Below the pieces are notes generated by a model. It did not search any database. It saw only the letters and a list, made by a program, of their open reading frames with translations, and had not been told where the DNA came from. From contig NC_063263.1 of assembly GCF_019578655.1 (NCBI RefSeq), positions 16,367,001 to 16,431,000 on the forward strand: a stretch of DNA of 64,000 nucleotides, in the 5' to 3' direction. Every line of letters begins with the position of its first letter. The stretch's first letter is position 1. Below, piece by piece: positions 15,984 through 61,274 of this stretch. The translations under genes and the position numbers were made by a program. This DNA comes from Ricinus communis (lineage: Eukaryota; Streptophyta; Magnoliopsida; Malpighiales; Euphorbiaceae).

Positions 15984-18900
15984 ATGGGGAAGAATAAGAC
16001 TTACTTAATTCTTTGCATGAAGATAATATTGTTGTATAGTTTCTTTGTAAGCATAGCCGATGGAGTAACAAACATCGCCAGTGATCAAGATGCTCTTCTT
16101 GCCCTGAAAGTTCGTATCATTCGTGACCCTAATAACCTATTGGCAGCCAACTGGTCCATTACTACCTCTGTATGCACCTGGGTAGGGGTTACTTGCGGAG
16201 CTCGCCATGGTAGAGTTACGGCTTTAGATCTTTCTGACATGGGCCTAACAGGGACAATTCCTCCTCATCTTGGGAACTTGTCATTCCTTGCATTCATCTC
16301 TTTCTACAACAACAGGTTCCATGGCTCTCTGCCCGATGAGCTCTCCAAGTTACGCCGGATAAAAGCCTTCGGCATGTCAACTAACTATTTCAGTGGTGAG
16401 ATCCCATCATGGATAGGGTCCTTCACTCAACTTCAACGATTGAGTCTGAGCTCTAACAAGTTTACAGGTACGTAGGCAAAACTAACTCTGTAGTCATTAT
16501 CCTTTTAAAGAGCTAGTTGATATTCAAAGCTAACTTTAGTTAATTCAAAACTATATGTCCCAAAGGTCTGATGTTGGTATTTCCAAATTTGAACTGAAAA
16601 TGATAAAACCCAAGACTAACATCTTATCTTAATTTATTTGCTTTAATTCCTGTACTTGTGTTATCTTTACTTTTGTTAACTTGAACTCCTTTTCTTACAG
16701 GTGTTTTTCCAACATCGATATTCAATCTCTCAGAACTCAATCTTTTATCTTTGTCTTCTAATAAACTTCAAGGCTATATTCCAGCAGCCATTGGAAATCT
16801 CTATAGCCTGAGAATACTGAATTTGAGTCATAATCATTTTTCAGGTTCCATACCCTCTAGTATCTTCAATATTTCTTCACTCCAAGTGATTAATTTCAGC
16901 CATAACGAGCTTTCAGGTTTGTTGCCAGCCATCTTAGCCAACAACACCATATCTTCACTTTGGCTACTCGATTTTGGGACCAATAATCTAACGGGTCGCC
17001 TCCCACCAAATATCTTCACCCATCTTGCTAATTTGAGAGCTTTGTATTTAAATTCCAACCTATTTAATGGTCCAATTCCTTCCACTTTGATGGCATGCCA
17101 GCAATTAAAACTTTTAGCTTTGTCATTCAATCATTTTGAAGGAAGCATACACAAGGATATTGGGAATTTGACCATGCTTCAGGAATTATATCTTGGTGGT
17201 AACAACTTCAGTGGTAAGTCACTTTTCTCTTTCTGTAAGTTGGAAATTTAAAAACGCCCAGTTACAAGTTGATTCTATGAAAAACAGGGAAAAGAACCAG
17301 ACAGATCCTTCAACTATGACTCCTAGACCACTTGTGCCTTTATTTTTCTCTTTTCCAATGGAAACATTTTGTTTTAACATCAGCTAGCCCAAAGAAGTAG
17401 AAAAAAAAAATCGGATCCATAGCTATGGCATGCATTGCAGGAATCGTGGTTCAGATACTTCTAATCATCCCAAAACTCTTTTACTTCCCTGAAGGCTGTT
17501 CCAAGCATTCTCAATCATTATTTGATTTCTCTTCGGGTATCTCTTTGTCTTTTACTTTGCTGAGTCACCATTGTTAATTTACCTTACTGATTCAAAAAAT
17601 ATTGAAGTATATATAAAGTTAGTCTTCTCCCATTGCTAAGCAACGATCATGATTTTGGAGATGCAGTTGGTTTAATATGGAATAGAGATCAAGAGTCAAG
17701 CTTGATAATTTGATTGAATCAGTTCCTTTTTCTTTTTTGTTAAAAGATTGAATTAGTTTATCTTTTGAAAATTTATATTTTGGAAGAGAAAAATAATGGT
17801 GAAAATAGTGAAAGTGATAGCGACCTAAGGAAGGAGAAGTGGGACTAAATTCACCAACTAAACTTTAATATCATAAACGCAAAAAATTAATTAGAGCCCA
17901 AGTGGTCTACCAATGATAATTAAGGCTTTTGTCTGCATCTTTTCTCTTAAAAATATAAACTTTCATAATAATTTAATAATTTAATTTTTTAAACAAAATA
18001 ATTCTATATTAATAAAAAATTTATAATTAAAAATTTATATATATATTAACAAAAATTTTATGATTAAAAATTTATAATTATATTAAACAAAATTTTTGTA
18101 ATCAAAATGTTTTTAGTTTGGTTTCTAACTATTCCTAATATTATTAATTAATTTTGAGCTGAAAATAAAAACAAGTCAAATAATTCCTGAATCAATATTT
18201 CTTTTAAGAAATAGTTGGAAATAGCTGAATCGTTAGTAATAGCTGATAATTGAGAACGAATGTTAATAAATCTTAATGATAAGATAAGATCTTACCAAAA
18301 GTTGCTATCTATAAGTTGAGTTATTGTACAAGAGTGTTATAAGCTTTAATTATTATGCATTTTTAGAGCATTTTTGATAATATTTTTTTTTATATGTTTC
18401 TCTATTAAATTATAGAATTTTAAATAATTTATTTTAATATATTTTGAAAATATATATGTATTTAATGTCTTAAACTTATTAATCGTAAGTGTACGAACTA
18501 AATAATAGTACGTGCAAGTTCGCAACAAAATTAATCTCACAAAAAATGGTAAAGCATATATTATAAAGACCAACTATTACACAAAATACTAAAAATGAAT
18601 CTAAATACTGTAAACTAATGTTTTGAGAATGATTTTAAGATTTAAGCAAAAAATTAAATAATTAGAAAATAAATATGTAACTGGAATGATTAATGTAAAG
18701 TATATGATAAAATAACATTTAGTCTAGCTTATACTTAGTAATCCCCTTATTTTTTTTAAGTCCAAATCTAATGAATAAGATGGTGATGTGCGTTTTCTCT
18801 AAGTCATTCAAGCTAATTATGCAACTTAAGTTTCTTATACCAACATAGATTAAAGTAAAGATGATGTTTCTAATACTTTTAATCTAAAGATTTTCATAAC

Positions 18901-19634
18901 AAATACTACTATTAAATTGATATAATAGTTAACTAATAATAATAAATAAAACTAATACATGTATGAAGGTAAAAAAATCATTTATTGAACTCATAATATA
19001 TAAGATTCATACATAAATAAAAAGCTAAACTAAACACTTATGAAACTCAACCTGACATATTTAATCCAATGGTAATTATAATTAATTAGAAAAAAATAAG
19101 ATATATAAAACAGAAAATTAAAACTTCTTCAAAATTTATAAGTTCTTCAAGGAATGAAGATGATTGATCCTCACTCTCCACATTTTGAAAAGTTTCTCTG
19201 ATTCTTGAAAGAATAATACTAAGACTAACTAAATGTTGTAGAAGATGATATATAGGAAATTCGTAGAGAGAAAAATAACAGATCCTCCTTTCCCTTATTT
19301 AATTCATCTTTATTTCTTGTAGAGATTTTTTTTCTTTTTAGAGTCATTCTTTCAGGATAACACTACTATAGTTATCATTTTCACTGTCCTAAACAAAATA
19401 GACAACTTAAAAGATAATTATCTTTAATTACATTATAACTAATTAATTTCCCTTCATAAGTCTTGATAAATTCGGTTAGGCCCGCAATATTGGTAGTCCA
19501 TTTATTTTTATTTCAAGCCTTGTACAGCCGTACTCCAATTAAAGCTCATTTATACATTTTTGGCTCATATTCTCTTTCTTTTGCCAATATCACATAAAAT
19601 TATACAAAAATGCTAAAGTGAAGTAAAAAGCATA

Positions 19635-19672
<38 letters not shown>

Positions 19673-20069
19673 CAATAAATTACTAAATATCTCAATTATA
19701 TATATAATTGAGAGAGAACGCGACTATTAAATTATTTAAAAAAAAAGATAAATTAAAAAAATTTAAAACCTATTTTTTTTACATATACTTCTTGTAATAA
19801 AAGAATAGTATCATTTAAGAGTTCGTTGCTTGATAATTAAACTGCTATTGATTTTTGAAAAGATGAACTGCTATCCTCTGGAATGGAAAAAATAACGTTG
19901 AGCGCATATTTTGACATTGTAGGCACTGAAATTCCGAAATCTATGGGAAATCTTTTGTACATGGAGACACTGAGTCTACCGAGCTGTGGTTTAATTGGCC
20001 CAATACCTTCGAGTATAGGAAACCTGACTCGGCTAAAGACTCTTGAACTCCGCGAAAATGGCTTAACAG
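15984..20069 (+). pseudogene. RLK1 5' part: LRR receptor kinase (subfamily XII type), exons 1-3
   Basis: First three exons of a plasma-membrane LRR receptor kinase: 15984-16467, 16701-17213 and 19923-20069. Exon 1 encodes a signal peptide (LLYSFFVSIADG), the N-terminal cap starting DQDALLALK with the Cys pair region CTWVGVTCGARHGRV, and the first LRRs (GLTGTIPPHLGNLSFL). Exon 2 encodes about seven LRRs and exon 3 exactly two (49 codons). All introns are phase 1, splitting the Gly of the xxTG/xxSG repeat end. These exons are open and would be functional alone, but the gene continues at 31343 where it is broken. Intron 1 is 233 bp, intron 2 is 2709 bp, intron 3 is 11,273 bp. The subfamily is inferred from the kinase half. 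Confidence 0.85.
17214..19922 (+). other. RLK1 intron 2 (2709 bp)
   Basis: Bounded by GTAAGT and TTGTAG. The same intron is 725 bp in RLK2 and 3461 bp in RLK3, so it has been expanded independently. AT-rich, with (AT)n at about 19641-19667. No gene or classifiable element recognised. Confidence 0.7.
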
Positions 20070-20782
20070 GTTTGGTATCATTAGTCATTAATTGTTTGTA
20101 CTGTAGGCTTGAAATAATTTAAATTGTCTATGTATAGTAGGATTAGAGTAGAGGAAACAAAGAGTATATATAGACTAACAATAAACAATGATTTAGATCT
20201 AACTATTATTGATCTAAGCAATCTACGGATATAATTTCTTATGAGTAATAAAATATTATTTTAAAAATTTTAATGCAAGACTTTAATTAAGTATTTTACT
20301 ATTTCATTTATACATTTTTAGACATATCTAACTATTATTAAGATTGACCAAAATTAAACTAATAGGTTTGCCCTCAAGTTATAATCGTCTTTTCTTTTTT
20401 ACATTATTTATATTGCTTGGTATGAGATAATCAAATACTCCAATACTTTAATTAAAGTAAAAAAAATGCATCATAAGTTTTGTCCAATGTCGTTTATATT
20501 ACTCAATGTGGGATAATAGATTTATTTGAAAAAAAATTGCGAGTTGTCTATATTCTGAAAATAATTAAAAAAAAATCTGTATTTTAACTTTTATTTTTAA
20601 ATTTATCTGGTGTTCTTTTCAGAAAAATCAAAGTATATTTTTTTAATTTTAATTTTATTTATTTAGTTTCATATACTTAACAAATAACTAACATTATATT
20701 TAAACAACATTTCTTTTTCTATTTTATAAATGTTTGTCTTCATATTTTTTTAAAAATAATCACAAATTCATTAAACGTATTC

Positions 20783-24323: not shown

Positions 24324-24720
24324 TGTAACAACCAGAATCATATCACATGAGATATTGTCCGCTTTGGCCTCCACTAGCCTCACGGTTTTGTCCTTTTGGC
24401 GGGTTCGAGAACTTTCCAAGAGGTCACCTATCCTGGAATTTCTCTGAACCAAGCGCGTTTAACTTTGGAGTTCCTACAACTCCATAGCCAAACAACGAAA
24501 ATGCACCTTATATGATTAGTTCTGACTCTTTACATATATGTTATCAACCATTCCCCGCTCCATTTCGATATGCAATTCGATTCATTTATGTACCCCGTAC
24601 CTTAAAGTGCTGCCATCCTAGAAGTCTGCCAGAAGCCGCTCCTTGTCCAGGTATCGTATTCTTGCCCTGGCGTCCACTTTCCGCCCTCGTCGGACCGCTT
24701 CTCTAGGCCAGGCTATCACA
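24324..24720 (-). repeat. TRIM 3' LTR
   Basis: Partner of 24782-25163. The pair shares TGTAA...CACA termini, 'gatattgtcc', 'tttaactttgga' and 'agaagccgctccttgtccag' blocks. Substitutions and small indels are many, so the insertion is old. Confidence 0.85.
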
Positions 24721-24781: not shown

Positions 24782-25163
24782 TGTAATGACCTTGAACCAG
24801 ATCACATGATATATTGTCCGTTTTATCCCCTGTTGACCTCATGTTTTTGTCCCTTTGGCGGGAAGGTCACCCATCTTGAAATTTTTCTGAACCAAACACG
24901 TTTAACTTTGGAGATCTACAACTCCACAGCCAAACAACCAAAAGGCACCTCATATGATTAGTTACAACTCTTTATATATATGTTGTCAACCATTCCCCAC
25001 CCTGTTTTGATGTGCAATTCGATTCATTCATATACCCTCGTACCTTAGAGTGCTGTCATTCTAGAAGCTTGCCAGAAGCCGCTCCTTGTCCAGACATCGT
25101 ATCCTTTCACCGGCGTCCACTTTCCACCCTCGTCGAATCGCTTCTCTAGGCTAGGCTGTCACA
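24782..25163 (-). repeat. TRIM 5' LTR
   Basis: Lies next to the primer-binding site, which sets the element's orientation as minus. Ends in TCACA followed by the GGTTG duplication. Confidence 0.85.
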
Positions 25164-25551: not shown

Positions 25552-25696
25552 TGTTAGGATTTGAAGAAGGATTTTGGTGTATTGTATTGTATTGTGTAAA
25601 ATGCCAAAATCATGAACCCTAATACAAAAGCTATACTAAGAATGTAGAAAAGACTAAACTACCCCTACAATATACAAAGAATTACATTATTTAACA
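25552..25696 (-). repeat. Copia 3' LTR (145 bp)
   Basis: TG...CA termini, identical in length to the copy at 30125-30269. Contains a CCAAAA region and two TGTATTG-like words typical of a very short LTR. Confidence 0.93.
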
Positions 25697-25708
25697 TCCC
25701 TCCTCAAA
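25697..25708 (-). other. Copia polypurine tract
   Basis: The minus strand reads TTTGAGGAGGGA immediately before the 3' LTR, the usual site of plus-strand priming. Confidence 0.8.
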
Positions 25709-25709
25709 C

Positions 25710-26450
25710 TCACGAGGCGATGGCAACAAGCATCGAGAGTTTGTCAGACAGAAAATGAAACCGTGAAGCAGTTAAAATTTTTGTAAACAAGTCTGCAAGT
25801 TGTAAGGAAGAAGAAACAAAAGGCAATGTCAAGGTGCCATTCTGAAGGTGATGACGAGTAATATGACCGTCAATCTCGATATGTTTGGTCCGTTCGTGAA
25901 AAACCGAATTGTGAGCAATCTGAATAGCACTCTTATTATCACAATGTAAAGGAGTCGGTTGCCCCAGAAAGACACCCATATCAGCAAGCAACCATCGCAA
26001 CCAAACTATTTCACAAGTGGTGGAAGCCATAGCTCGACATTCAACCTCCATTGAGGATCGAGAAATGACGTCCTGCTTCTTACTTTTTCAAGAGATAAGG
26101 GAATCACCTAGAAAAATACAAAATCCAGTAGTTGATTTGCGGTCAGTAGGATCACCGGCCCAATCAGCATCAGAGTAAGCACATAACTCTAATGATGAAG
26201 TAGATGAAAGTAGAAGAGTTTGAAACTGAGTGCCGCGGAGGTATCTCAAAATGTGAAGAACAACAGCCCAATGAATTGTAGTAGGAGAAATAACAAACTG
26301 ACTGACTATATGAACAGCATATGCGATATCAGGACGAGTGATAGTGAGATAAACCAAACTTTCAACAACAAATCTCAGCAGTTTTATTATCAGAAAGCCG
26401 AGCACGCTAAAAAATATCAGAAATATACTTAGATTGAGAAAGAAGATACC
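25710..26450 (-). pseudogene. Copia RNase H domain
   Basis: Two open pieces (26405-26088 and 26051-25710) read LTITRPDIAYAV, SDADWAGDPTDRKSTTGF, then SSMEVECRAMASTTCEIVWL, HCDNKSAIQIA and the end motif LADLFTK. The catalytic Asp/Glu/Asp positions (SDAD, MEVE, CDNK) are present, but the chain is broken between pieces and upstream of 26405. Confidence 0.9.
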
Positions 26451-26470
26451 CTTTTAGAGAGGAGGCAACT

Positions 26471-27200
26471 TCAATACCCAAGAAGTAACGAAGGGAATCC
26501 AAGTCCTTCATAGCAAAACAACGAGTCAGTTCGGACTTTAATAGACTAAACCCGACAGCATCATCCACCTATAATAATCATATCATCAACATACAGAGAA
26601 AGCCGAATTTGACCAGCCAAAGTACATTTGACAAATAGAGCAGAGTCATGATTGCTAGGATGAAAACCAAGTGAAGTAATCACAGTAGAAAACTTTTCAA
26701 ACCAGGCACGAGGAGCCTGTTTAAGACCATAGAGAGCCTTCCTGAGTTTGCAAACTTCACCAGGCTGATGATCAAGACTAGGAGGAGGAACCATATAAAC
26801 TTCTTCGTGAAGATCGCCATGCAAAAAAGCATTTTTAACATCCATTTGAGTTATATCCCAGTGACGAACAGAAGCAACAATAATGAGTGTTCGAACTGTG
26901 GTCATTTTAGCAACGGGAGCAAAAGTCTCCTCATAATCCAGACCATATTCCTGAGAATAACCTTTAGCCACTAGACGAGCTTTATACCTTTCAATAGACC
27001 AATTAGACTTAGTTTTAATCTTATAAATCCAGCGAGAGCCAATAGAACATTTACCTGTAGGAAGGGACACTAAATCCCAAGTATGTGTTTGATGAAGAGT
27101 AGTTAGCTCCTCAGCCATAGCACGCTGCCAGAGCGGATCAAGAATGGCTTCTTTGAACGATGAAGGCTCAGAAAGACAATGAATAGAAGGTAGAAAAGAA
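26471..27200 (-). pseudogene. Copia reverse transcriptase domain
   Basis: WIYKIKTKSN, RLVAKGYSQEYGLDYEETFA, MDVKNAFLHGDL, LYGLKQAPRAW and the catalytic YVDDMII are all present, in the open frame 27769-26561 continuous with the integrase end. A frameshift follows IIIGG; the next segment continues in another frame as a CFAMKDLDSLRYFLGIEV-like stretch. Confidence 0.95.
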
Positions 27201-27299
27201 GAAAATGAACTCGAATAATAAGAATAATGAAAATCAGGTTGTTTAGTGGATTTACGATTTTGTACCGGACATCGAGGTTCGATAGTATCCGCAGTCTCA

Positions 27300-28400
27300 G
27301 GAGATGATATAGGGGAGGAGCCAGTAGAAATGTCAGGAATGCCAGCAGAGGGTAGCTCATCAATATCAATAGCAAAAGGATCAATGTGGACAAGATCAGA
27401 CATAGATATATTATGAGGACGATTAGGGATAGTAAAATAAGGAATATGTTCAAGAAAAACAACATGACGAGAAACATATAATTTATGATTGACTGGATCA
27501 AAATAACGATATCCTTTTTGACCTGCACTATAACCAAGAAAAACACATACAGTAGAGCGAGATGTTAACTTACTACGTTCAACATGAGGAAGAAGGACAA
27601 AGCATGTAGAACCAAAGACACGAAGGGAAGAGTAATCTGGAGGACAACCATACAATCTTTCATAGGGAGACAAACCAGAATTATGAGAAATAGAAATTCT
27701 GTTAATTAAGTGAACAGAAGTAAGAATTCCCTCCCCCCATAATTCACTAGGAACGCTTGCAGACAACAAGAGGGATCGAGCAATCTCAAGAATGTGCCTA
27801 TGTTTTCTTTCAGCAACTCCATTTTGTTCAGGAGTATCAGTTCAAGAAGTCTGGTAAATTGTACCATCTAAAGCAAGTAGGTTTTTAAAACCATTTTCTC
27901 CTCCCAAGTCACATCTAAAACACTTAATGACAGTTGAATGTTGGATTTTCACAAGAGATCAAAATTCATTATAAATGCCAAAAAAGTCTGAACGACGTTT
28001 CATAAGTGCAATCATCAATAAAAGATACATAGTAATGAGAACCCCCTTTTGTAGAGACAGAAGAGGGTTCCCATACATCAGAATGAATGAGTTCAAAAAG
28101 AGTAACAGAAATAGTAGTACTTCTAGAAAAAGGCAATGCAGTAAACTTTGCTAGTTTACAACCACTACAATCAGAAATATCATGAGTTTTCAAATTTTCT
28201 AAAGCTCCTGTAGATACTAAAAATTGCAAACGAGACACAGAGACATGGCCAAGGCGAGAATGCCACAAATAAAACACAGACGAGGACGGACTTAACCGAA
28301 AGGATGACAAATTAACACCAGAAGCAGATGCTGCAGTATGAGGAGTTGTGAGCTGATCCAATACATAAAGTCCTCCTTCTCCATGGCCGATCCCAATCAC
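27300..28400 (-). pseudogene. Copia integrase (with pre-integrase zinc-binding segment)
   Basis: The open frame 28400-27969 holds LWHSRLGHVSVSRL, the CxxC-type CSGCKLAKF and DVWEPSSVSTKGGSHYYVSF, the start of the catalytic core (FIDDCT). The core is interrupted around 27970-27780. The open frame from 27769 carries the C-terminal part: WGEGILTSVHLINRI, LYGCPPDYSSLRVFG and VFLGYSAGQKGYRYFD. Confidence 0.9.
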
Positions 28401-28562
28401 CTTCTAAGAATGTGGATCCTGAATTGAACAAGTAGAGGAAGAAAAAGAGACTGAGCATCCAGTATCACAAATCTAACCAACAGAAGCAAGATTCAAAGCA
28501 AGACTAGGAATGTGATAAACATTGGATAAAGATAGAGAAGGCGTAATAACTGAACCAACACC

Positions 28563-28799
28563 TTATAATGGCATAGGTGTACCACTAGCATTCATAACAG
28601 GGACTAAAACTTTAGGGGTTAGATAAGTGAATAATGATAAATTAGGTGGCATATGGTTTGAAGCACCAGAATCTAAAATCCAGGAGGAAGGGGATATACC
28701 TGAAGAACTAGATGACAAACCTATTTGAGAGGAAGCAGACATGGCATGAGGCTGAGAAGCAAGGAACTGCTGAAACTGTTCGATCAGTGATGAGTCCAA
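28563..28799 (-). pseudogene. Copia aspartic protease region
   Basis: WILDSGASNHM (near 28680-28650) is the DSGA active-site motif of Copia protease, preceded by a Ser-rich linker and a Gln-rich stretch (LIEQFQQFLASQ). Part of the gag-pol frame. Confidence 0.85.
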
Positions 28800-28879
28800 G
28801 GAGGAGGTTGATAGAGCATTGTGAGGACGAGGTAGAAGGGGTGGTCCATTGTGAAGAGGCGGTGGTCGATAAGACCACT

Positions 28880-29646
28880 GTTGAGACTGCTACTGTTTTC
28901 CTCTGCCCAATTTCGGACATTGAGATTTCCAATGACCTTTTTGCTTGCAGAACTCGCATTCATCCCGAGCAACAGATCCAGATGGTCTGAAATGAGATTT
29001 AGAGTTTCGAGGAGGCATGGAAAAAACGGATGGAGTAGAAGCTGAAGAGATCTATTTTACAACCGGGTGCTTCAGATTCAGACGAATTTCTTTGGCCAAA
29101 AGCTCACTAACAACAGAGTCAATGGAAGGCAGTGGATGACGATGCAGAATAGACCCGCGAAGTCCCTCAAACTCATCACGAAGGGCCATTAAAAATTGTA
29201 CTAACCTCTGCTCCTTTTTTCGTGCAACATAAGCCCCAAAGGTTCGCAATTCAGCAGATTCTGTGAGAGCCAATTGACCCCACAAAACTGTCATAGATTC
29301 ATAAATTTCCCGAATGCTCATATTTCTCTGCTGAAGGACACGAATGTCAGACTCCAATTGGTATTGTTTTACAAAATTAGACTGGGTGTACAGTCTGGCC
29401 AGATGATCCCAAACCTCCTTAGCTGTCTCAAATCTTGCTAGCTAAATGCCTATGGAATGTTTGACAGAATTATTGATCCAGGTTATAATTTTTGAATTAT
29501 CGACCTCCCATTTATCCAGTAGTGCCACATGGTCCCCGCTTACCTTTTAGAAAAATTTTCATCGCATAACTCCAATAGGCATAGTTTTTACCATCTAATT
29601 GAACACTGATTGCTTGGAGCGAATCATCCCTAATTTCAGCTATCAT
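28880..29646 (-). pseudogene. Copia gag with zinc knuckle
   Basis: Starts at 29646 with MIAEIRDDSLQAIS and LDGKNYAYWSYAMK, the usual Copia gag start. After one frameshift and one stop near 29445, it continues as 29357-29052 (MSIREIYESMTVLW, LMALRDEFEGLRGSIL). The nucleocapsid knuckle CEFCKQKGHWKSQC (CX2CX4HX4C) lies near 28960-28915. Confidence 0.9.
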
Positions 29647-29859
29647 GCCCACAGATTAACAGTGAAAAAAAAATGTTTAGCAGATAGTCTCACAAGCCAA
29701 AGAGATTAACACAAGGAGAAAATACCCACTCCTTTTATACAGAAAATCAACAACAATCAACAAAACAACACACTAAAACACCAACAAACGAAAGCGAAAC
29801 CAATTTCCAAAACCAATTTTAGTCCAAATACCTTCTTTTAGCTCATATGAAATAACACC

Positions 29860-30112
29860 GTTTCACAGCAGCCAAACAACAAACTCACGCAGCAAGAAGA
29901 CGAAGACGCACACAGACCCAAGAAGGACCCAACAAGAAGAAGACGCAGCAAGAAGACACAGATCCAGCAATAACAGCAGCAAGAAGAAGACGCAGACCCA
30001 GCAGGCAGTCAACGCACACAAAACCAGCAGACTTAAGAACATAAGCAGCCCAAACAAACAGCAGCAAGAAAAAGACGGCAAAAAGGAACAATTTATTTTC
30101 CAAGAGCCAGAG
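29860..30112 (-). other. Copia 5' leader with CAG/AAG-rich imperfect repeats
   Basis: Between the primer-binding site and gag. On the plus strand it repeats words such as agcaagaaga, gaagacgcag and acagaccca several times. The open frames here (29863-30103, minus) are Leu/Cys-rich artefacts of that repetition. Confidence 0.55.
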
Positions 30113-30124
30113 GCTCTGATACCA
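30113..30124 (-). other. Copia primer-binding site
   Basis: The minus strand reads TGGTATCAGAGC immediately after the 5' LTR, complementary to initiator tRNA-Met. Confidence 0.93.
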
Positions 30125-30269
30125 TATTAAGATTTGAAGAAGGATTTTGGTGTATTGTATTGTATTGTGTAAAATGCCAAAACCATGAACCCTAATATAA
30201 AAGCTATACTAAGAATGTAGAAAAGACTAAACTACCCCTACAATATACAAAAAATTATATTATTTAACA
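30125..30269 (-). repeat. Copia 5' LTR (145 bp)
   Basis: Six transitions separate it from the 3' LTR. One alters the inner terminal CA to TA, so this LTR end would no longer be a good integrase substrate. Confidence 0.93.
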
Positions 30270-30580: not shown

Positions 30581-31342
30581 TCGCATATCTACAGGCTGAA
30601 CTCTGACTTGAAGGCTAACTTCTGATTAACTTTTGGAACCAAAACAATATTTAAATTTATGCAATTGATCATATTAATAAAATAACCAGCAAGATAATTA
30701 AACAATCACTAAAATTCTTTCAGTAAATTAGTAAATTTGTATTTTACTATTCTTTTTACATTTTTATATATATTATAATTATAGATTATTGATATAATAT
30801 TAAAATTGATAGGCCAATATTAAGCATTGAATTAAACTTAAAATCATATACATAATAATCTCTATAATATCTTGAAAATTAAGTTAGGCCAAAATTCATC
30901 ATTTCAAGAAAATATTTAATAAAACTGAAAGTCATTTAAAGTTATTTAAAACACGGAAATTTGGAAATTAATTAATGAGTAACTTAATAATTGAGTGATT
31001 CAAAATTAAGATGAAAAATTATATGAAATTTTAATACTTAAAAATCAATACCTTAATAGTATTAAACATATGGTAAAAATGTAGGGTATTAAATAGGAAA
31101 AGTATTGTTTTTATATTTAAAATTTATTGTATTAATAACATTACAATATAATTAATATTAATTTATGTAAATATAGTTAATATATTAATTTATAAAATAA
31201 ACAAATTAATCTCATCTTATACAAAATATTATCAACCATCTATTGAATTATGATTATGTAAATTCAATTTAGTGCTAGTAACCTTATAAACATTTTTTAT
31301 TTATAAATTATAGCGTTAAATGACAGCTATGAATTATGACAG
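30581..31342 (+). other. Rest of RLK1 intron 3
   Basis: AT-rich. The last 40 bases ('gcgttaaatgacag', then 'gaattatgacag') match the ends of the same intron in RLK2 ('gcgtcaaatgacag', 'aactatgacag'), fixing the acceptor at 31342. Confidence 0.7.
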
Positions 31343-33739
31343 GTACCATTCCAGATGAGATCGGTGACCTTGCTCACCTAGAAGAAATTATTCTTAACGT
31401 TAACGGTCTTTCTGGACTCGTTCCTTCTGGAATCTATAATGCTTCAAAGATGACCGCGATAGGATTAGCTCTTAATCAACTATCAGGCTATCTTCCTTCG
31501 AGCTCAAATCTTCCAAATCTTGAATTCTTTATCATTGAAGATAATAACTTCACCGGTCCGATTCCTGTTTCTCTCTTTAATGCTTCCAAACTTGGTAACA
31601 TAGACTTGGGCTGGAATTCATTCTACGGCCCTATTCCTGACGAGCTTGGTAATTTAAAAAGTCTAGAGGTTTTCACTTTCTGGGTAAATCACCTGACCGT
31701 CAAATCTTCGTCTTCAGGATTGAGCTTGTTCTCTTCTTTGACAAAGTGCAAACATTTGAGACGATTTGATCTGAGTAACAATCCATTAAATGGCAATCTT
31801 CCAATTTCTGTTGGAAATCTATCTTCCTCTCTCGAAGTGGTCGAGATTTTTGATTGTGGAATTACAGGCGCCATTCCTAAAGAAATTGGCAACTTAAGCA
31901 GCTTAAGTTGGTTAGATTTAGGTGCAAATGACTTGAGGGGAACCATTCCTACCACAATAAGAAAATTAGGGAAGCTCCAAGAATTAAAACTTCACTATAA
32001 TAGATTAGAAGGGTCTTTTCCCTACGAATTATGTGATTTGCAGAGTTTGGCTTATTTATATTTAGAGGTAAATGCGCTTTCTGGACAAATCCCATCATGC
32101 CTAGGCAATGCGAATTCTCTAAGGACTCTCTCCATGGGAATGAATAAATTTAGTTCCACAATACCTTCAACTTTGTGGAGACTTGCAGATATCCTGGAAC
32201 TAAACTTATCATCCAATTCTTTAAGTGGCTCTCTCGCAGTAGATATTGGCAATTTGAAAGCTGTGACACTAATTGATTTATCAGGAAATCAATTATCAGG
32301 TCACATCCCATCTAGCATAGGAGGCCTTAAGACTCTATTAAACCTTTCTTTAGCTGTTAATATTGGAAGGCTCTATCCCTCAATCATTTGGTGATGCAAT
32401 AAGCTTGCAGTTATTGGATTTGTCAAACAATAATCTTTCTGGAGAAATTCCTAAGTCCTTGGAGGAACTCCGGTATCTCACATATTTCAATGTGTCTTTC
32501 AATGAATTACAAGGAGAGATACCAAATGGAAGAGCTTTTATAAATTTATCAGCTAAATCATTTATGGGGAACAAAGGACTATGTGGTGCCGCTAAACTTC
32601 AAGTTCAGCCCTGTGAAACTAGCACTCATCAAGGATCAAAGGCAGCTAGTAAACTTGCATTGAGGTATGGTTTGATGGCGACAGGATTAACAATTTTGGC
32701 AGTGGCGGCTGTTGCTATTATCTTCATCAGGTCTCGCAAAAGGAACATGCGGATAACTGAAGGATTGTTACCTTTGGCAACATTGAAAAGAATTTCATAT
32801 CGAGAGCTTGAGCAGGCAACAGATAAATTTAACGAGATGAACTTGCTTGGTAGAGGGAGTTTTGGGTCAGTATACAAAGGAACTTTTCAGATGGGTCGAG
32901 TGTTGCAGTAAAAGTTTTCAATTTGCAGGTAGAAGGAGCATTCAAGAGTTTTGATGTCGAGTGTGAAGTATTGCGCATGATTCGGCATCGAAATCTTGTC
33001 AAAATAATAACAAGTTGCAGTGATATCAACATTGATTTTAAAGCCTTAGTTCTTGAGTTCATGCCTAATTATAGCCTTGAAAATGGTTGTGTTCTCCGAA
33101 ACATTTCTTGGAACTCCTAGAGAGGTTGAACATAATGCTTGATGTTGCATCAGCAGTAGAGTACCTTCATCATGGTTATGCAATGCCAATAGTTCACTGT
33201 GATTTAAAGCCCAGCAATATCCTACTAGACGAGAACATGGTTGCTCATGTAACTGACTTTGGCATTGCAAAACTCCTTGGTGATGAGCATTCTTTCATAC
33301 AGACCATCACATTAGCTACTGTTGGCTACATGGCACCAGGTGATGTATCTAGTTTCTATGTAAAGTATAATGCCATACTAGCTAGGCTTTTCTTTTTCCT
33401 TAGTATTGTAATAAATAAACGAAATTAATGTATTTGTAGAGTATGGATCAGAAGGAGTTGTTTCAACTGGAGGTGACATATATAGTTTTGGTATTTTGTT
33501 AATGGAAACCTTCACAAGAAAAAAGCCTACAGATGATATGTTTAATGAGGAAATAAGCATGAAGCAATGGGTTCAAGAGTCAGTACCTGGTGGCGTAACT
33601 CAAATTACAGACCCCGATTTGCTAAGGATTGAGGAACAACATTTTTCTGCTAAGAAGGATTGCATATTATCTGTCATGCAAGTGGCCCTTCAGTGGTCTG
33701 CAGGTAATATTGCAGTGTTTGGATTTGCAGCAACATAGA
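31343..33739 (+). pseudogene. RLK1 3' part: LRRs, transmembrane and non-RD kinase, frameshifted and C-terminally deleted
   Basis: Exon 4 is 31343-33339; exon 5 starts at 33440 after a 100-bp intron. It encodes the remaining LRRs, a transmembrane helix (LMATGLTILAVAAVAIIFI), RSRKR stop-transfer, and a kinase with [11 protein letters not shown] and [12 protein letters not shown] (Cys instead of Arg, non-RD). Compared with RLK2 there are a 2-nt deletion near 32356-32362, a 1-nt loss in a T-run at 32884-32887, a 1-nt loss in an A-run at 33080-33083, and a 109-bp deletion at 33703/33704. The deletion removes the last 30 or so residues (LPEERPNIRDVL region) and the stop. A Cys-to-Trp change (QWSAG) lies next to it. 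A full-length product is not possible. The two homopolymer losses alone might be sequencing error. Confidence 0.9.
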
Positions 33740-33985
33740 TGGAAGTGTCTCCTCAGACAAAGCCAATCTCAATAACTGGAATGTCCAGTGTTGATCAACA
33801 TTATTTAGATGAGTGTTTCAGGATTCACAGATAATTCAATATTGTTCGTGTGAAATAATTATGACAGTTCTTCCTAAATACAATTAAATTCATCTTCATT
33901 TCAAATGTGTACATGTCCAATCACATAATGCTGCATAAACATCAGGTTGACCAGACCTCATTTATGATTTTAATTTATGCAGCGG
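33704..33985 (+). repeat. 3' flank shared with RLK2 (47810-48090)
   Basis: From 'gtaatattgcag' to 'tttatgcag' the two flanks differ by about one substitution and one A by eye. Beyond that point RLK1 stops matching RLK2 and instead resembles the RLK3 flank (about 59455-59550: 'gtgaaaaatgc/ctgaaaaatgc', 'gtaagtggt/ataagtggt', 'ataggcat'). Confidence 0.8.
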
Positions 33986-35642
33986 TTGTACTTGTGAAAA
34001 ATGCATATCAGGTCGCTCATAGTGTAAGTGGTTGCGGCAAGAATAGTGCCAGTATGGTCGTAATAGGCATAATTGAAATGCATTTCTTGCTCTTGCATTC
34101 TCCTAATGTAGAGAATGCAAGAACTAAGAATATCCATTAGCATGCACAACTGGCCTATGTTTACTGTGAAATCATGCTCTTTCAGGATTTTTCAAAGGTT
34201 TATCACCCAATTTATTAATTTGATATATTGGCCATCCTTTCCTCTTTCTTGTAATATTCTCATAAGATATGATTAACAACAAAAACTAATTTTACACCGA
34301 GATTTTACAGATTTTAAACATAGCAGTCCGGATATGTACTTTTCTCTTTCTCCAATATCTTGTCGTTGATAACTCACCGTGAATGTGAAGTCGAAACTAT
34401 TAATGGAAGAACAGTTACAAAACGAAGAAAGACAAAAAGTACTGTCGCTGTAGAAGCCCCGCAGACCATACACATGCATTCCTGCATGAACTAATTTGCT
34501 CTGTAGTAGTGAAGGACACATGTTTTACAGCTCCCAATTCTGAACATGTTACATCAGGACCCAAGGAAACATAAGAAGACATCATGTTCATTCTCATAAA
34601 TCTTTTACTTTCCTATCTATTATTTGTTCTTATAAGAATTAAAAATTGATTTAGATGTAGTTCAAAGTTCAAATATGTCTTCTTTTACTATTCATGATAC
34701 AGGAAAATGTCTGTGTAGTTATACTATTTGCCCATATTAATTTTATTACTAGGAGAGGTTATAACTTAAATTAGATGTAGTTATAAAAATTTGTAATTTA
34801 ATTTAATTATTCTAATTGTAAGTGGTATATAAGTAAAATATGCACTATATTAATGTATTTAATTAATAGAACATATCAAAACTGAGTACATATAGGGAAA
34901 TATAAATATAATTTCATAAAATTATTACATTGAGAAAAAATAGACGTAATTTTGACTATGAAATTGTCCATACTAACAAATCCTTATGTACCAGCAAATT
35001 CAAAAAATGTGTTAACAAATAATGAAATCTAAATTTTTTTTGACATTTATGTTTAAATGAATTAGGATATCAACATTGTGATGCCTAAAGCATTTTTAAA
35101 AGACTCTTTATATAAATTAAAATTTTTATTATAAAAAGTCATTTAATAAAATAGGACCCTAATACTTTTTATTTTTTAAATATAAAATAAAAAGTAAATT
35201 TATCTCTCTACATTTGGAAAGCCAACTCTTTATCCTTATTTTAATTAATATATTATAAATAATTTTCTCTATAAAAAAATTAAAATATTAATACTTGTTG
35301 GATAAAATAAAATAAAAATAAAAATATAAAGAAACCAATTGACTAAAATAAAATTTTCTACTTTTTATATTTAAATATAAATAAAATACTCTTTAAAATA
35401 AAGAACACCGTTAAGATGCTCTCATACTCTATCTTCTTTATAAAGTTAGAGGTTATATAAATAATTTTACTAAATATGATATATTTAATATATTACATAG
35501 AGAAAATTTGTAAGCTTTTTCAATTATTTTATTATTCTTTTTGTATTTCAGTAACTTTTCAGTTTAATTTTTTTTTAATATGGTCTCTTTGATTATAACA
35601 TATATTAATTTAGTTAAACATAACTACAATAATAATTATATG

Positions 35643-41628: not shown

Positions 41629-44600
41629 ATGGAGAAGAAAAGAACTTGCTCAATCCTATGCATAATGATGTTATTGTATAGTTTCTTTGCAAGCTTAGTC
41701 GAAGGTGTAACAAACCTGGCCACTGATCAAGATGGTCTTCTTGCCCTCAAACTTCGTCTTATTCGTGACCCAAATAATCTATTGGCAACCAACTGGTCGA
41801 CTACTACCTCCGTATGCACTTGGGTAGGTGTTACTTGTGGAGCTCGTCATGGTAGAGTTGCGGCTTTAGATCTTTCCGACATGGGCCTAACAGGGACAGT
41901 TCCTCCTCATCTAGGAAACCTGTCGTTCCTGGTATTTATCAGTTTCTATAACAACAGTTTTCACGGATCTCTGCCCAATGAGCTCTCCAAGTTACGCCGG
42001 ATGAAAACTTTCTGGTTGACAAAAAACTACTTCAGTGGGGAGATCCCATCATGGTTAGGGTCTTTCGCTCGACTTCAACAACTGAGTCTAGGCTTTAACA
42101 AGTTTACAGGTAAATAGGTGTCTTAATATGTTTGCATTTATTTGTTCAAATATGTTAGATGATATTCGAGGCTAACTTTATGTAGAAAAGAAAAACACTT
42201 AATGATTTGAGAATACTGAACCAAAAATGACAAAACCCAAGAGCACTTATCGTAATTTATTTGCTTTAATTGCTTTACTTATATTAACATTATTTCTGTT
42301 AAATATGAACTCTATTTTGCACAGGTGTTATCCCGGTGTCGTTTTTCAATCTCTCAAAGCTCAATTTTTTTGATTTATCTTCCAATAAGCTACAAGGTTA
42401 TATTCCAAAAGCAATTGGAAATCTTAATAGCCTGAGAATATTGTCTCTGGAGAAGAATAATTTTTCGGGTTCTATACCTTCTGGTATTTTCAATATTTCT
42501 TCACTTCAGGTAATTGATTTAAGTGATAACAGGCTTTCAGGTTCCATGCCAGCCATCTTGGATAACAACACCATGCCTTCACTTCTGCAACTTGATTTTG
42601 GATTTAATAATCTCACAGGCCATCTCCCAGCAAATATGTTTACACATCTTCCCAATTTGGAAGCGTTGTACTTGAGTTGGAACCTATTTCATGGTCCAAT
42701 TCCTTCCACTTTGATCAGATGCAAGCAATTAAAACATTTAATTTTGCCTTACAATCATTTTGAAGGAAGCATAGACAAGGATATTGGGAATTTGACCATG
42801 CTTCAGGAATTAAATCTTGATCTAAATAATTTTAAAGGTAAGTATCATTCTTTTTTTCTTATAAGTTGAAAATTTAAAAGGGATGAGTAGAATTAAACCC
42901 TATTATTATAAGAAAAAGAAATAAATAAAATCGTTCCTTCATAGGTTTATTTGATAGCTTAAATCTTTTTTTGACAGGAGCAACTTACATAATAATAAAA
43001 TCTCTATAATTGAAAATTTTAGCATATTAATAAGGCAAAATCCATTATTAGACTCCTAACATTTTTCAGTTTTATTTTATTGAACTCTTAAATTTTTATT
43101 TATTTTATTGAGTCCTTATAATGTTATTTTTTTTTTAATTTTATTAAAAGACTTCTTATACATATTCGTCAAATGATATTCTATTTATTTCATAAGATTT
43201 TTATTTGTTCCATTAAGTCCTTTTATTTTTTATTTTTGCTTTGATTAAGAATTATTAGGTGCTCAATAAAAATATAAAAAAAATTACAAAGCTTAAAAAT
43301 GCATTGTGTCTATTATTAATTAGTTTTATGTTGAAAATGAAAAATTAAATATTTTTTAATCAACTATTTTTTTTTGTGAATAGTTGAATATTGATGAATT
43401 TTAATGATAATATGAAGAATTTTATTAGAGATGCTGCTGTCTATAAGTTAAATTGTCGGATAATAAGCTTCAATAATTATGGCTTCTTATTCTTCTCATA
43501 ATTAATTTGATATCTTGTTTATTGAAAAATAACTTTTGACACATATATTTTTGACATTATAGGCACTGAAATTCCAACATCTATTGGAAATCTTTTCTAC
43601 ATGGAGAGACTAACTCTACACCGTAATGGTTTAATTGGTCCCATACCTTCGAGTTTGGGAAACCTGACTCAGCTAAAGAGACTTATACTCAGTGAAAATG
43701 GCTTAACAGGTTTGTTATCATACATACTTACATATATAATTGTTTGCCATGTAAATTTTTTATTTTTGTTCAATATCTTGCAAAAATAAATAATAATTGC
43801 AAAAGTAAATAAATATATGAAATAAAACAATGTTGATCGCTGGTCAGACTTGGTTTCGTATGTACATTAATGATAGACCAATCACACTTCCTCTTTTTTA
43901 ATATTATCTTTCGTTCGATTTCAAAAAAAAAAAAAAAACAAAGAAAACATTATCTTTAGTTCAAATTTTATTTATATATTAATCTTTAATAGGTTATTTT
44001 TAAATGAATTTTTTTTAATATGACATGTTATTTGAATAATGATTTGAAATAAAAAGATAAATGAGAGAAAATATATATTTAAATTAATGGTAGTTTTATT
44101 AATATTATAAATGTAGAATTTATTTAAAAATTCTTTATAAAGGAAAGAACCTCATTTTAAAAAATTTAGTTTAATTATATTTAGTTTCAAAAATTTAATG
44201 CTCTAGAATTTCATAAAATATTTTATTTACATCAAACACATAAAATATAATTTTATAAAGCTTATAAAAAAAATCTATTTATATCAAAATACAATATAAA
44301 ACATTAACTAATTAAACTTTATTAATTGCGTGATCACTAGACAAGTATTGTTCTCTCTATCTCCGCTTTTTACTCGCTGAAAGGAAAGAAATTTGATGGT
44401 TTAAAAAGTTATGGTATGAATTGAAATTTTTTTTAATGTCAAACATCTGACATAAAATGATAATTTAATAAATATTAATATATAAAAATAAGAAATAGTT
44501 AGTAGATAGTTGGTGGGTATTTCTTTATCTTTTTATTTTTATTTTTATTTTGGCTAGCTAGGATTTGAATAGGTTTAACTGAATTGTTATTATATAAAAT

Positions 44601-47600
44601 TCAAAAATAATAATTATTTTCTTTGGCATACAGGCAATCCATAATTTAAGAAAAGGAGGTTATAGGTGTACCAAGTTATTAGATTTTTTTTCCTTTTGAA
44701 AAATGGCAAATTATTAGATTTGATTATAGTGACTAGTAATTTGGTGGGTCGGGTAAAATTAAATCCATTTTGATAATTAAGAGTCAAAAATTCCCTTATA
44801 AGAAACTGACTCAGCAAAAAGAAAAGTAGCAAAATTGATTGAATCCAATATTTAAATTTGGCTTGATTTCTTAAATTTCTAATTTGACATTAGTTCTAAC
44901 GTCAAATTATTATATTGTTTTAGGAAAAACAATATATATATATATATATATATATAGCATTCACATTCCATAATTTACGGTAACTTTTAATTACTTATGT
45001 ATTTACTCAAAAAAATTTATAAAATTTAAATTAAATTTACATAAAATATATTAATATGTAACTTTTAGATAAACTTAAGTATTATAATGTTTTTATAAAT
45101 TATCTTTAAAATAAAATTTTTTATTTAAATTAATCTAAATTTTATTATCTTTCATCCAATAAACATATTATTATAAATTAGATACCCTAAAATTCACATG
45201 ATTTAATGATGACTCGTTTTCCTTTCTCTATTTCTTTTTCTATTTTCTTCTATAAATTTCATTTTTATTTTTACGCTGATTTTATTTTTATAAAGTATAG
45301 CGTCAAATGACAGAGCTGAACTATGACAGGTACAATTCCAAATGAGATTGGTAACCTTGCTAACTTAGAAGTTATAGATCTTGGAGCTAACAATCTTACT
45401 GGACTCGTTCCCTCTGGTATCTATAATGCTTCAAAGATGATGGTGATAATATTGGCTATTAATCAACTTTCGGGCCGTCTTCCTTCGAGCTTAGGTCTCC
45501 ATCTTCCGAATCTTGAAGACCTTCTTGTTGTAGATAATAACTTCACCGGTCCGATTCCTGTTTCTCTCTTTAATGCTTCCGAACTTAGAATTATCGACAT
45601 GGGTTTGAATTCATTCTTTGGCCCTATTCCTGATGAGCTTGGTAATTTAAGAGGCCTAGAGGTTTTCAGTTTCTGGGTAAATCACCTGACCATCAAATCT
45701 TCGTCTTCAGGATTGACCTTGTTCTCTTCTTTGACAAAGTGCAAACATTTGAGACGTTTTGATCTGAGTAACAATCCATTAAATGGCAATCTTCCAATTT
45801 CTGTTGGAAATCTATCTTCCTCTCTCGAAGTGGTCGAGATTTTTGATTGTGGAATTACAGGCACCATTCCTAAAGAAATTGGCAACTTAAGCAGCTTAAG
45901 TTGGTTAGATTTAGGTGCAAATGACTTGAGGGGAACCATTCCTACCACAATAAGAACATTAGGGAAGCTCCAAGAATTAAAACTTCACTATAATAGATTA
46001 GAAGGGTCTTTCCACTACGAGTTATGTGAGTTGCAGAGTTTGGCTTATTTATATTTGGAGGTGAATGCGCTTTCTGGACAAATCCCATCATGCCTAGGCA
46101 ATGTGAATTCTCTAAGGACTCTCTCCATGGGAATGAATAAATTTAATTCCACAATACCTTCAACTTTGTGGAGGCTTGCAGATATCCTGGAACTAAACTT
46201 ATCATCCAATTCTTTAAGTGGCTCTCTCGCAGTAGATATTGGCAATTTGAAAGCTGTGACACTAATTGATTTATCAGGAAATCAATTATCAGGTCACATC
46301 CCATCTAGCATAGGAGGCCTTAAGACTCTATTAAACCTTTCTTTAGCTGATAATAGATTGGAAGGCTCTATCCCTCAATCATTTGGTGATGCAATAAGCT
46401 TGCAGTTATTGGATTTGTCAAACAATAGTCTTTCTGGAGAAATTCCTAAGTCCTTGGAGGAACTCCGGTATCTCACATATTTCAATGTGTCTTTCAATGA
46501 ATTACAAGGAGAGATACCAAATGGAAGAGCTTTTATAAATTTATCAGCTAAATCATTTATGGGGAACAAAGGACTATGTGGTGCCGCTAAACTTCAAGTT
46601 CAGCCCTGTGAAACTAGCACTCATCAAGGATCAAAGGCAGCTAGTAAACTTGCATTGAGGTATGGTTTGATGGCGACAGGATTAACAATTTTGGCAGTGG
46701 CGGCTGTTGCTATTATCTTCATCAGGTCTCGCAAAAGGAACATGCGGATAACTGAAGGATTGTTACCTTTGGCAACATTGAAAAGAATTTCATATCGAGA
46801 GCTTGAACAGGCAACAGATAAATTTAACGAGATGAACTTGCTTGGTAGAGGGAGTTTTGGGTCAGTATACAAAGGAACTTTTTCAGATGGGTCGAGTGTT
46901 GCAGTAAAAGTTTTCAATTTGCAGGTAGAAGGAGCATTCAAGAGTTTTGATGTCGAGTGTGAAGTATTGCGCATGATTCGGCATCGAAATCTTGTCAAAA
47001 TAATAACAAGTTGCAGTGATATCAACATTGATTTTAAAGCCTTAGTTCTTGAGTTCATGCCTAATTATAGCCTTGAAAAATGGTTGTGTTCTCCGAAACA
47101 TTTCTTGGAACTCCTAGAGAGGTTGAACATAATGCTTGATGTTGCATCAGCAGTAGAGTACCTTCATCATGGTTATGCAATGCCAATAGTTCACTGTGAT
47201 TTAAAGCCCAGCAATATCCTACTAGACGAGAACATGGTTGCTCATGTAACTGACTTTGGCATTGCAAAACTCCTTGGTGATGAGCATTCTTTCATACAGA
47301 CCATCACATTAGCTACTGTTGGCTACATGGCACCAGGTGATGTATCTAGTTTCTATGTAAAGTATAATGCCATACTAGCTAGGCTTTTCTTTTTCCTTAG
47401 TATTGTAATAAATAAACGAAATTAATGTATTTGTAGAGTATGGATCAGAAGGAGTTGTTTCAACTGGAGGTGACATATATAGTTTTGGTATTTTGTTAAT
47501 GGAAACCTTCACAAGAAAAAAGCCTACAGATGATATGTTTAATGAGGAAATAAGCATGAAGCAATGGGTTCAAGAGTCAGTACCTGGTGGCGTAACTCAA

Positions 47601-47786
47601 ATTACAGACCCCGATTTGCTAAGGATTGAGGAACAACATTTTTCTGCTAAGAAGGATTGCATATTATCTGTCATGCAAGTGGCCCTTCAGTGTTCTGCAG
47701 ATTTACCTGAGGAAAGGCCAAATATAAGGGATGTTCTCAACACTCTCAATCACACTAAAGTGAAGTTTCTCAAGGATATTAATTAA
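41629..47786 (+). CDS. RLK2: intact LRR receptor-like kinase, subfamily XII (FLS2/EFR/Xa21 type)
   Basis: Exons 41629-42109, 42325-42837, 43563-43709, 45330-47336 and 47437-47786 give 1166 codons with stop, continuous in frame. Signal peptide at residues 1-26; N-terminal cap DQDGLLALK with CTWVGVTCGARHGRV; a long LRR array rich in GxIPxxIGNLxxL; second Cys pair (GLCGAAKLQVQPC) before the transmembrane helix at about 822-846. Kinase at about 880-1155 with [11 protein letters not shown], Lys near 906 in [18 protein letters not shown] near 1002 and DFG near 1022. Cys replaces Arg before the catalytic Asp (non-RD), as in pattern-recognition receptors that sense microbial ligands at the plasma membrane with co-receptor kinases. 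Intron 4 splits MAP/EYGSEG, a position usual in this subfamily. The ligand is unknown. The tandem position suggests a defence role. Confidence 0.93.
42838..43562 (+). other. RLK2 intron 2
   Basis: 725 bp with GT/AG ends. 43030-43250 contains phrases such as 'gactcctaac' and 'ttgagtcctt' of the kind seen in plant dispersed repeats; no termini defined. Confidence 0.6.
43710..45329 (+). other. RLK2 intron 3
   Basis: 1620 bp, AT-rich with (AT)n at 44936-44956. This is the intron that carries the TE nest in RLK1. No element was recognised here, so the nest formed after the copies separated or was not included in the copying. Confidence 0.7.
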
Positions 47787-48744
47787 ATCTGAAATAAGAC
47801 CGAAGTAAGGTAATATTGCAGTGTTTGGATTTGCAGCAACATAGATGGAAGTGTCTCCTCGGACAAAGCCAATCTCAATAACTGGAATGTCCAGTGTTGA
47901 TCAACATTATTTAGATGAGTGTTTCAGGATTCACAGATAATTCAATATTGTTCGTGTGAAAATAATTATGACAGTTCTTCCTAAATACAATTAAATTCAT
48001 CTTCATTTCAAATGTGTACATGTCCAATCACATAATGCTGCATAAACATCAGGTTGACCAGACCTCATTTATGATTTTAATTTATGCAGTGGGTGGTTGC
48101 ACAGGGAAATGAAAGATGGTCAGTTGTGAAAGTTGCATGAGAGGCAGAGGCAAGAACAGTGCGCATATCATCATAATTGGCATCATAGGGATCTGAAGTA
48201 AGAATAGCCATTTTTATTGTGGGATTGTATATGTTGTTGCAGACTCGTTCACAGGTTTATCACCCAATTTCTTGATTTGATACACTGGTTCTTCTCTTCT
48301 GTGCAAGATTCTTATAAAACATGATTTAGAAGTAGGAGTGACTAATTCTGGATGAGGATATTAGAGATTTCAGATAGCAATTTCTATAACACAACTTTTG
48401 CCCAAATGAAGGCCCAGGACTGCAACTGTAAAACTTGCAACTCCCAAAAGTGGCCTCCGCCAAGAAAAAAGAAAAATTGCAAAAGGGAATTGTCAAAAAA
48501 ATAACAAAACTGCAGAGGGCTAAAGATACCTTTTTCCTTTAATTTTTTTTCTGTTTCAAATAAAAGAAAATAAAGAAAATATTGAATCAATTAACATTGT
48601 TCATCAAATGGTATCCTAATAATGGCATCCTATCGATGAAAAAGAATAAATTAGTGAATAGCATCTTAGTAATTGAACCTCTAATTTCTTGCAATTTTGA
48701 GATTGGAAGTCATTAAACTGCTAATTCAATGATTTCAGATAATA
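47787..48744. other. RLK2 3' flank
   Basis: 47810-48090 is shared with RLK1. 48432-48475 ('aaaacttgcaactcccaa', 'tggcctccgccaa') is shared with 60161-60196 beyond RLK3, so the duplicated unit extended past each gene. No gene. Confidence 0.55.
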
Positions 48745-50538: not shown

Positions 50539-51866
50539 CCCACTGCCATTTTCTCTGAATCAAAGCTTCATACCGTCATGGGGAAGACCAAGGCTCAGTA
50601 CTATTTAACTCTTTCCATGATGATGTTATTCTACAGTTTCTTCACAAGCCTAGTCGATGGGGTAACAAACATCAGCACTGATCAAGATGCTCTTCTTGCC
50701 CTCAAAGTTCGTATCGTTGGTGATCCTAATAGCCTATTGACAACAAATTGGTCTACTGCTACCTCTGTATGTACCTGGATAGGCGTGACTTGTGGAGCTC
50801 GCCATAACAGAGTTACAGCTTTAAATCTTTCTCACATGGGCCTCGCAGGGACAATTCCTCCTCATCTAGGAAACCTGTCATTCCTAGTATTCATCAATTT
50901 CAACAATAACAGTTTTCATGGGTCTCTGCCAATGAGCTTTCCAAATTACGCAGGATGAAAACCTTCACGTTCTCAACCAACTCCTTCAGCAGTGAGATCC
51001 CATCATGGATAGGGGCTTTCACTCATCTTCAACTATTGAATCTAAGTTCTAACAACTTTACAGGTATTCGGGTGCCTAAATATGTTTGCAGTTTTATACA
51101 TAGGTGAGCACAAAACTTCATGCGGACTAACATCTCCATCTACGTTACCATGCTATATTGCTACATTCAAAAATTACTTTCTTGCTGAGAATTGAATTGA
51201 ACCAAAAGTGATAACCAAGACAGTCTTATCTTAATTTATTTGCCTTACTTAAAACATCATTACTTTTGCTAATTGTGGACTCTATTTCTTACAGGTGTTA
51301 TCCCCACATCGTTATTCAACCTTTCAAAACTCAGTATTTTTTATTTGTCTTCTAATAATCTACAAGGTTATATTCCAGAAGCAATCGGAAATCTCTATAG
51401 CCTGAGACTTTTGTCTTTGGAGAAAAATGAATTTTCAGATTCCATACCCTCTAGTATTTTCAATATTTCTTCACTTGAGCAAATTGATTTTAGCAATAAC
51501 AGGTTTTCAGGTGCCATGCCAGCCATCTTAGTTAACAACACCATGTCTTCACTTCTGATGCTTGATTTTGGGACCAATAACCTAATAGGTCTCCTCCCGC
51601 CAAATATGTTTACCCAATTTTCTAATTTGGAAAAGTTGTATTTACATTCCAACCTATTTTATGGTCCAATTCCTTCCACTTTGATCGGATGCAAGCGATT
51701 AAAGATTCTATCTTTGTCTAACAATCATTTTGAAGGAAGAATACACAAGGATATTGGGAATTTGACCATGCTTCAAGTCTTACATCTTGCTAGCAACAAC
51801 TTCAGCGGTAGGTTTCGCTTTTGCTCTTATTCTTTTACATGTTGAAAATATATAGGCAAGAATATA

Positions 51867-61180: not shown

Positions 61181-61274
61181 GTTTGTTGTAGCACTAACCA
61201 ACTGATCATAAAGTGGTTGCCTTATTGCTGCTTTCAGATTTAGGATATGATAATCACATTTTTAACACATGCTC

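Follow-up and report, generated by a model that had tools for sequence, protein, structure and literature searches.

How have two neighbouring receptor kinase genes come to be almost identical in one half and clearly diverged in the other? The question is raised by a 64 000 bp stretch of castor bean (Ricinus communis) DNA (contig C8, positions 16367001-16431000), here called the window, which carries three tandem leucine-rich repeat (LRR) receptor kinase genes, RLK1, RLK2 and RLK3, on its + strand. The original prediction held that the 3′ half of RLK1 had been overwritten by RLK2 through ectopic gene conversion. Ectopic (interlocus) conversion between RLK1 and RLK2, in one direction or the other, very probably explains the near-identity, and the two-step version is probable; as to the RLK2-to-RLK1 direction the outgroup bases are mixed. 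The genes and the regions compared are:

15984-20081 (+): RLK1 exons 1-3 (E1 15984-16472; E2 within 16685-17251; E3 within 19888-20081)
31333 onward (+): RLK1 exons 4-5, separated from exon 3 by a Copia-type retrotransposon
41629-47783 (+): RLK2
50578-59214 (+): RLK3
45656-48089 (+): RLK2 equivalent of the near-identical tract, with uninterrupted exons
56377-59434 (+): RLK3 equivalent of the tract, which serves as rate control

RLK1 and RLK2 lie ~14 kb apart. LRRNT_2, LRR and Ser/Thr kinase domains, with a membrane span seen by eye in the translation, mark the genes as LRR receptor-like kinases of the EFR/FLS2/Xa21 type, and the best named relatives bear names of the At3g47570/EFR/FLS2/Xa21 type. 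By the names of their best matches the genes would belong to subfamily XII. Exons 1-3 of RLK1 encode N-terminal LRRs (LRRNT_2 and LRR domains were found in E1) and are diverged from both other copies. Identity in the exon 1-2 block is 79% for RLK1-RLK2 (1045/1318), 77% for RLK1-RLK3 and 78% for RLK2-RLK3, in keeping with the clear divergence of exons 1-3 that had been predicted for the first pair. The coding pieces of RLK2 are 100% identical to a Ricinus communis protein, P0001.

The Copia-type element between RLK1 exons 3 and 4 (25554-30269, - strand) is broken into several frames, among them a gag-like one (29441-29052) and a reverse transcriptase (27841-26561). At its ends are direct repeats (25554-25696 and 30127-30269) that are 96.5% alike over 143 bp and are probably LTR remnants.

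The assembly that we searched comprises 315.5 Mb in 140 contigs. No third donor was seen in it, because among the matches listed the close copies number three (RLK3 at 92%) and the next best stands at 72%. Among the best candidates scored, the start of exon 4 with the left flank gave three matches in the assembly, all within this array, and the right flank gave five, four within this array and one (77 bp) on contig C2.

Where the near-identity begins and ends was determined by maximum-likelihood change-point analysis. The lowest BIC (672.0) was obtained with four segments and breakpoints at 31663, 32182 and 33983; models with three, five and six segments gave 680.0, 679.6 and 683.3. RLK1-RLK2 identity thus moves in steps of 83%, 97%, 99.7% and 55-72%, the fourth segment (33983-34060) having 39 differences in 78 positions. 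The first three segments, and the intron within the third, are:

31333-31662 (+): RLK1 exon 4 before the tract, RLK2 differing at 57 of 330 bp, dS 0.297
31663-32181 (+): putative older converted segment, LRR coding, RLK2 differing at 15 of 519 bp, dS 0.053
32182-33982 (+): putative younger converted segment, 5 substitutions against RLK2 in 1801 aligned bp
33353-33450 (+): aligned part of intron 4, matching RLK2 at 98/98 positions and RLK3 at 74/90

The younger segment contains the C-terminal LRRs, membrane span, kinase, intron 4, exon 5 and ~280 bp of 3′ flank. By these limits the right end predicted near 33985 holds (33982/33983), and the left end, predicted near 31540, is moved by the best-BIC model to 31663. 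We rejected a separate short tract at 31539-31587 (49 identical bp), which appears only in the six- and seven-segment models, where BIC is worse (683.3 with six, against 672.0).

Chance does not produce such a tract. The longest run in which RLK1 equals RLK2 spans 96 consecutive polymorphic sites, far beyond the maximum of 43 in 10,000 permutations, so that the expectation of significant breakpoints is upheld; likewise the scored segment 31666-33981 reaches 229.2 against a null maximum of 79.8 in 3,000. The older and younger segments also differ from one another (p = 7e-7 per site; p = 1.2e-4 at sites variable among the three copies). Inside the whole tract the two genes are separated by 20 substitutions and by deletions of 2 and 109 bp. 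Several counts that had been made by eye agree with the alignment. Between 32375-33339 and 46374-47336, where about two substitutions and two single-base deletions had been counted, we find substitutions at 32433 and 32812 and deletions at 32883 and 33079. Intron 4 is indeed identical over the 98 positions aligned. The 3′ flank, expected to show one or two changes in about 280 bp, has a substitution at 33755 and a 1-bp deletion at 33852 within 33703-33982. The interval 31690-32360, said to hold roughly 15-20 differences, has 15 substitutions, with the 2-bp deletion adjoining at 32361/32362.

Could purifying selection, or a mutation rate that is locally low, simply have kept the 3′ halves alike? 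As that explanation would have it, conservation is higher in the kinase part in every pairwise comparison (91% for RLK2-RLK3), but synonymous sites, the intron and the 3′ flank are near-identical between RLK1 and RLK2 and neither copy is so against RLK3. Along the gene RLK1-RLK2 dS goes from 0.297 to 0.053 to 0-0.007, far under RLK2-RLK3 within the tract (RLK2-RLK3 dS is 0.15-0.44 across those segments), and the 3′ flank is 279/280 identical. These results agree with the original argument that identity of intron and flank excludes protein selection as the cause. RLK2-RLK3 divergence, our local rate control, is flat over the left breakpoint (66/336 against 94/519, p = 0.59), while that of RLK1-RLK2 drops (57/330 against 15/519, p = 4e-13); local rate or constraint therefore cannot account for the drop, and we give this explanation next to no credence.

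A separate observation concerns RLK2 and RLK3 at 46175-47340, in the C-terminal LRR and kinase part, where their synonymous difference is 42/262 compared with 69/253 in the remaining tested portions of exons 4-5 (p = 0.003). There may have been an older exchange there too.

The right end requires more care than the left, and two flanking stretches matter:

33983-34070 (+): local RLK3-like stretch, RLK1-RLK3 70/86 and RLK1-RLK2 48/88
34191-34274 (+): RLK2 homology (48248-48326) reappears

It had been proposed that RLK1 abruptly matches an RLK3-type flank to the right of 33985. This is so in 33983-34070 and fails further right, where RLK1 aligns with RLK2. Within 33983-34070, RLK2 (from 48090) departs from both RLK1 (48/88) and RLK3 (48/86), and the RLK1-RLK3 level is about the same before the tract end (184/225) as after it (70/86). 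RLK2 is therefore the deviating copy in this stretch. By 34071-34140 the likeness to RLK3 is gone (RLK1-RLK3 35/61; RLK1-RLK2 21/29). At 34191-34274 RLK1 and RLK2 match at 66/77 ungapped positions, with a score of 75 against a shuffle maximum of 35 in 100 (77% in another search), and RLK1-RLK3 scores 23 against a shuffle maximum of 33. A lasting RLK3-type right flank of RLK1 was thus ruled out. Both flanks of the tract stand at ordinary paralog divergence, the right one with many indels.

Tandem arrays undergo unequal crossing-over and partial duplication, and a gene whose 3′ half is identical to its neighbour's resembles a crossover chimera. A single crossover would leave one breakpoint and carry the RLK2 flank onward; here both sides return to paralog divergence. 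Paralog-level homology past the right end means that the tract has two ends, and the many indels amid the renewed RLK2 homology (66/77) also speak against crossover. We judge both unequal crossing-over and partial duplication of recent date very unlikely, and interlocus conversion is the reading that we carry forward.

To the right of this flank, a 77 bp stretch (34370-34446) matches C2:5912693-5912769 at 96% and is probably a dispersed repeat.

DNA trees, rooted with three castor paralogs and bootstrapped, place RLK1 and RLK2 as sisters in three parts of the tract (100, 82 and 94%), and only the branch lengths collapse. They are sisters also in exon 4 to the left of the tract (82%). Protein trees, with an outgroup of six proteins (five from other species and one castor paralog), join RLK1 and RLK2 in exon 1 (82%), in the left part of exon 4 (94%) and, with P0002 (described below) standing for RLK1, in the tract (100%); they weakly pair RLK2 with RLK3 in exon 2 (66%) and in exons 1 and 2 together (64%). 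RLK1 and RLK3 group in no segment of either the protein or the DNA trees. The switch from an RLK3-like to an RLK2 topology that had been foreseen is thus contradicted by the sisterhood beside the tract. Conversion need not bring such a switch if donor and recipient are each other's closest relatives beforehand; the claim of conversion therefore leans on branch lengths and distances.

Several deletions disrupt RLK1 in this assembly, the two larger being:

32361-32362 (+): point at which RLK1 lacks 2 bp that RLK2 and RLK3 have, giving a frameshift
33701-33702 (+): point at which RLK1 lacks 109 bp (RLK2 47699-47807), with AG at both ends of the deletion

The 109-bp deletion, which the original prediction overlooked, takes away the end of the kinase exon and the stop codon. 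Three 1-bp deletions are private to RLK1, two in coding sequence (32883 and 33079) and one in the 3′ flank (33852), each within a run of 4-5 A or T. Homopolymer 1-bp deletions are an error type expected of Nanopore consensus, and these could be long-read consensus errors.

This makes it necessary to ask whether RLK2 reads were collapsed into RLK1 during assembly, as the three private deletions might suggest. A second castor sequence bears on the matter. P0002 (XP_015581530.1) is a predicted castor protein of 785 aa from a gene model that starts at exon 4, which we take to derive from the cultivar reference assembly. Up to 32359, it departs from the RLK1 of the window in 3 of 341 residues. Its differences from P0001 (RLK2) number 30 in residues 1-109, 6 in residues 110-282 and 3 in residues 283-785; the last of them is at residue 367 and the final 418 residues (368-785) are identical. 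Of the ten non-synonymous RLK1-RLK2 sites in 31663-32360, P0002 carries the RLK1 residue at seven and the RLK2 residue at three (31676, 31870 and 32111). Judged from its sequence, P0002 appears to keep the RLK1 mosaic unbroken, so that the mosaic would be common to at least two castor sequences. This points to a conversion older than the damage to RLK1, and it makes an assembly collapse unlikely, as RLK1 residues recur in a different sequence with the same mosaic. The 20 substitutions and the 2-bp and 109-bp deletions that divide the copies inside the tract likewise argue against a collapse, which we regard as most improbable.

The assembly of the wild castor accession WT05 is given, in the accessible part of PMC9510866, as 316.11 Mb in 146 sequences from Nanopore reads.

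Conversion could have run opposite to the predicted direction, with RLK1, then intact, giving the tract to RLK2. Such a transfer would still be the same conversion, only reversed. The tract itself holds no sign of direction, and RLK1 is a possible donor since the other castor RLK1 model, P0002, is unbroken. All three outgroups agree with RLK1, and not with RLK2, at 32433; at 32812 two of the three do, against both RLK2 and RLK3, a pattern that a clean copy does not explain. The outgroup base is also that of RLK1 at 32021 and 32037, and that of RLK2 at 31870 and 32111; RLK2 sides with two of three outgroups at 31699, 32019 and 32028. Left of the tract the RLK1 branch is the longer (0.142 against 0.076), and in the younger part the two copies share a short stem (0.027 and 0.028), a slightly better fit to RLK2 as the source; in the older part their stem is long (0.137), which weakens that lean. 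We consider RLK1 as donor a reasonable possibility, short of an even chance.

Ages can be given only as orders of magnitude. With a substitution rate of 7e-9 per site and year, a hand calculation puts 5/1801 at ~0.2 and 15/519 at ~2 million years, figures good to orders of magnitude only. The same calculation gives, again as an order of magnitude, ~14 million years for the left part of exon 4.

We propose the following course of events. RLK1 and RLK2 would first have diverged by ~20%. A homologous stretch, from inside exon 4 to ~280 bp beyond the gene, would then have been copied between them, presumably by break repair with the paralog as template. There were probably two overlapping episodes ending near 33982, an older one that would start at ~31663 and a younger at ~32182. 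Their shared right end lies where the RLK2 flank departs from the flanks of RLK1 and RLK3. RLK1 would have been damaged afterwards, in the haplotype of this assembly. We infer two events instead of one patchy event, but a single event with patchy repair could mimic two. It is rather unlikely that the 3′ half of these genes is a recurrent conversion hotspot, with nested events sharing a right end at the rearranged RLK2 flank. If it were, castor populations might segregate mosaics that share one kinase module and differ in their LRR ectodomains, and unbroken (P0002) and disrupted (this assembly) alleles would coexist.

It had also been suggested that the exchange moved kinase sequence under a distinct LRR sensor. 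The kinase does lie in the tract, but the C-terminal LRRs were homogenised too and RLK1 is disrupted here, so the functional idea is weak.

Conversion is a known process, ordinary in such gene clusters, and nothing is overturned by this case. In the accessible text of PMC3136440, two genes of the OAK/At5g59670 RLK tandem cluster of Arabidopsis thaliana have an identical 2.7-kb fragment in common in one accession, which its authors read as recent gene conversion extending into the first 60 bp of kinase sequence. The likeness to castor is a near-identical piece common to two RLK genes of one cluster. The two cases differ in that the extracellular part is homogenised at OAK and the kinase, C-terminal LRRs and 3′ flank in castor, and the OAK receptors are malectin-like while the castor genes are LRR-XII-type with one copy disrupted. 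For multigene families of plants, homogenisation between paralogs is likewise described (PMC2277409, on rice; PMC3924838, a review). As far as their accessible parts go, these are genome-wide or review treatments, and the castor case is one locus with mapped ends. Receptors of the At3g47570/EFR/FLS2/Xa21 type have LRRNT_2, LRR and kinase domains as the castor genes do; in castor the LRR region is split over several exons and RLK1 is broken here. Among the matches listed for castor bean and gene conversion, no title concerned castor receptor kinases, which is no proof of absence.

The locus shows conversion, apparently in two steps and with clear limits, in a plant receptor kinase array. Distances taken from the kinase halves would misdate the RLK1-RLK2 split, dS being ~0 in the younger tract against 0.297 beside it. 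Short reads would presumably hardly separate the two kinase halves.

The window has further features around the array. Intron 4 of RLK3 contains ~715 bp (58074-58788) that are not in RLK1 or RLK2, with no clear terminal inverted repeats seen at this extra stretch. Between RLK3 exons, a direct repeat of ~400 bp (53204-53610 and 53666-54059) is 93% alike. Pieces like LRR receptor-like proteins, apparently decayed, lie on both strands at 60329-62845; the + strand pieces have LRRs, and the - strand piece has by eye an apparent C-terminal membrane span, with no Pfam match. Finally, two copies of a 300-bp direct repeat, 86% alike, lie near each other at 24421-24720 and 24864-25163.
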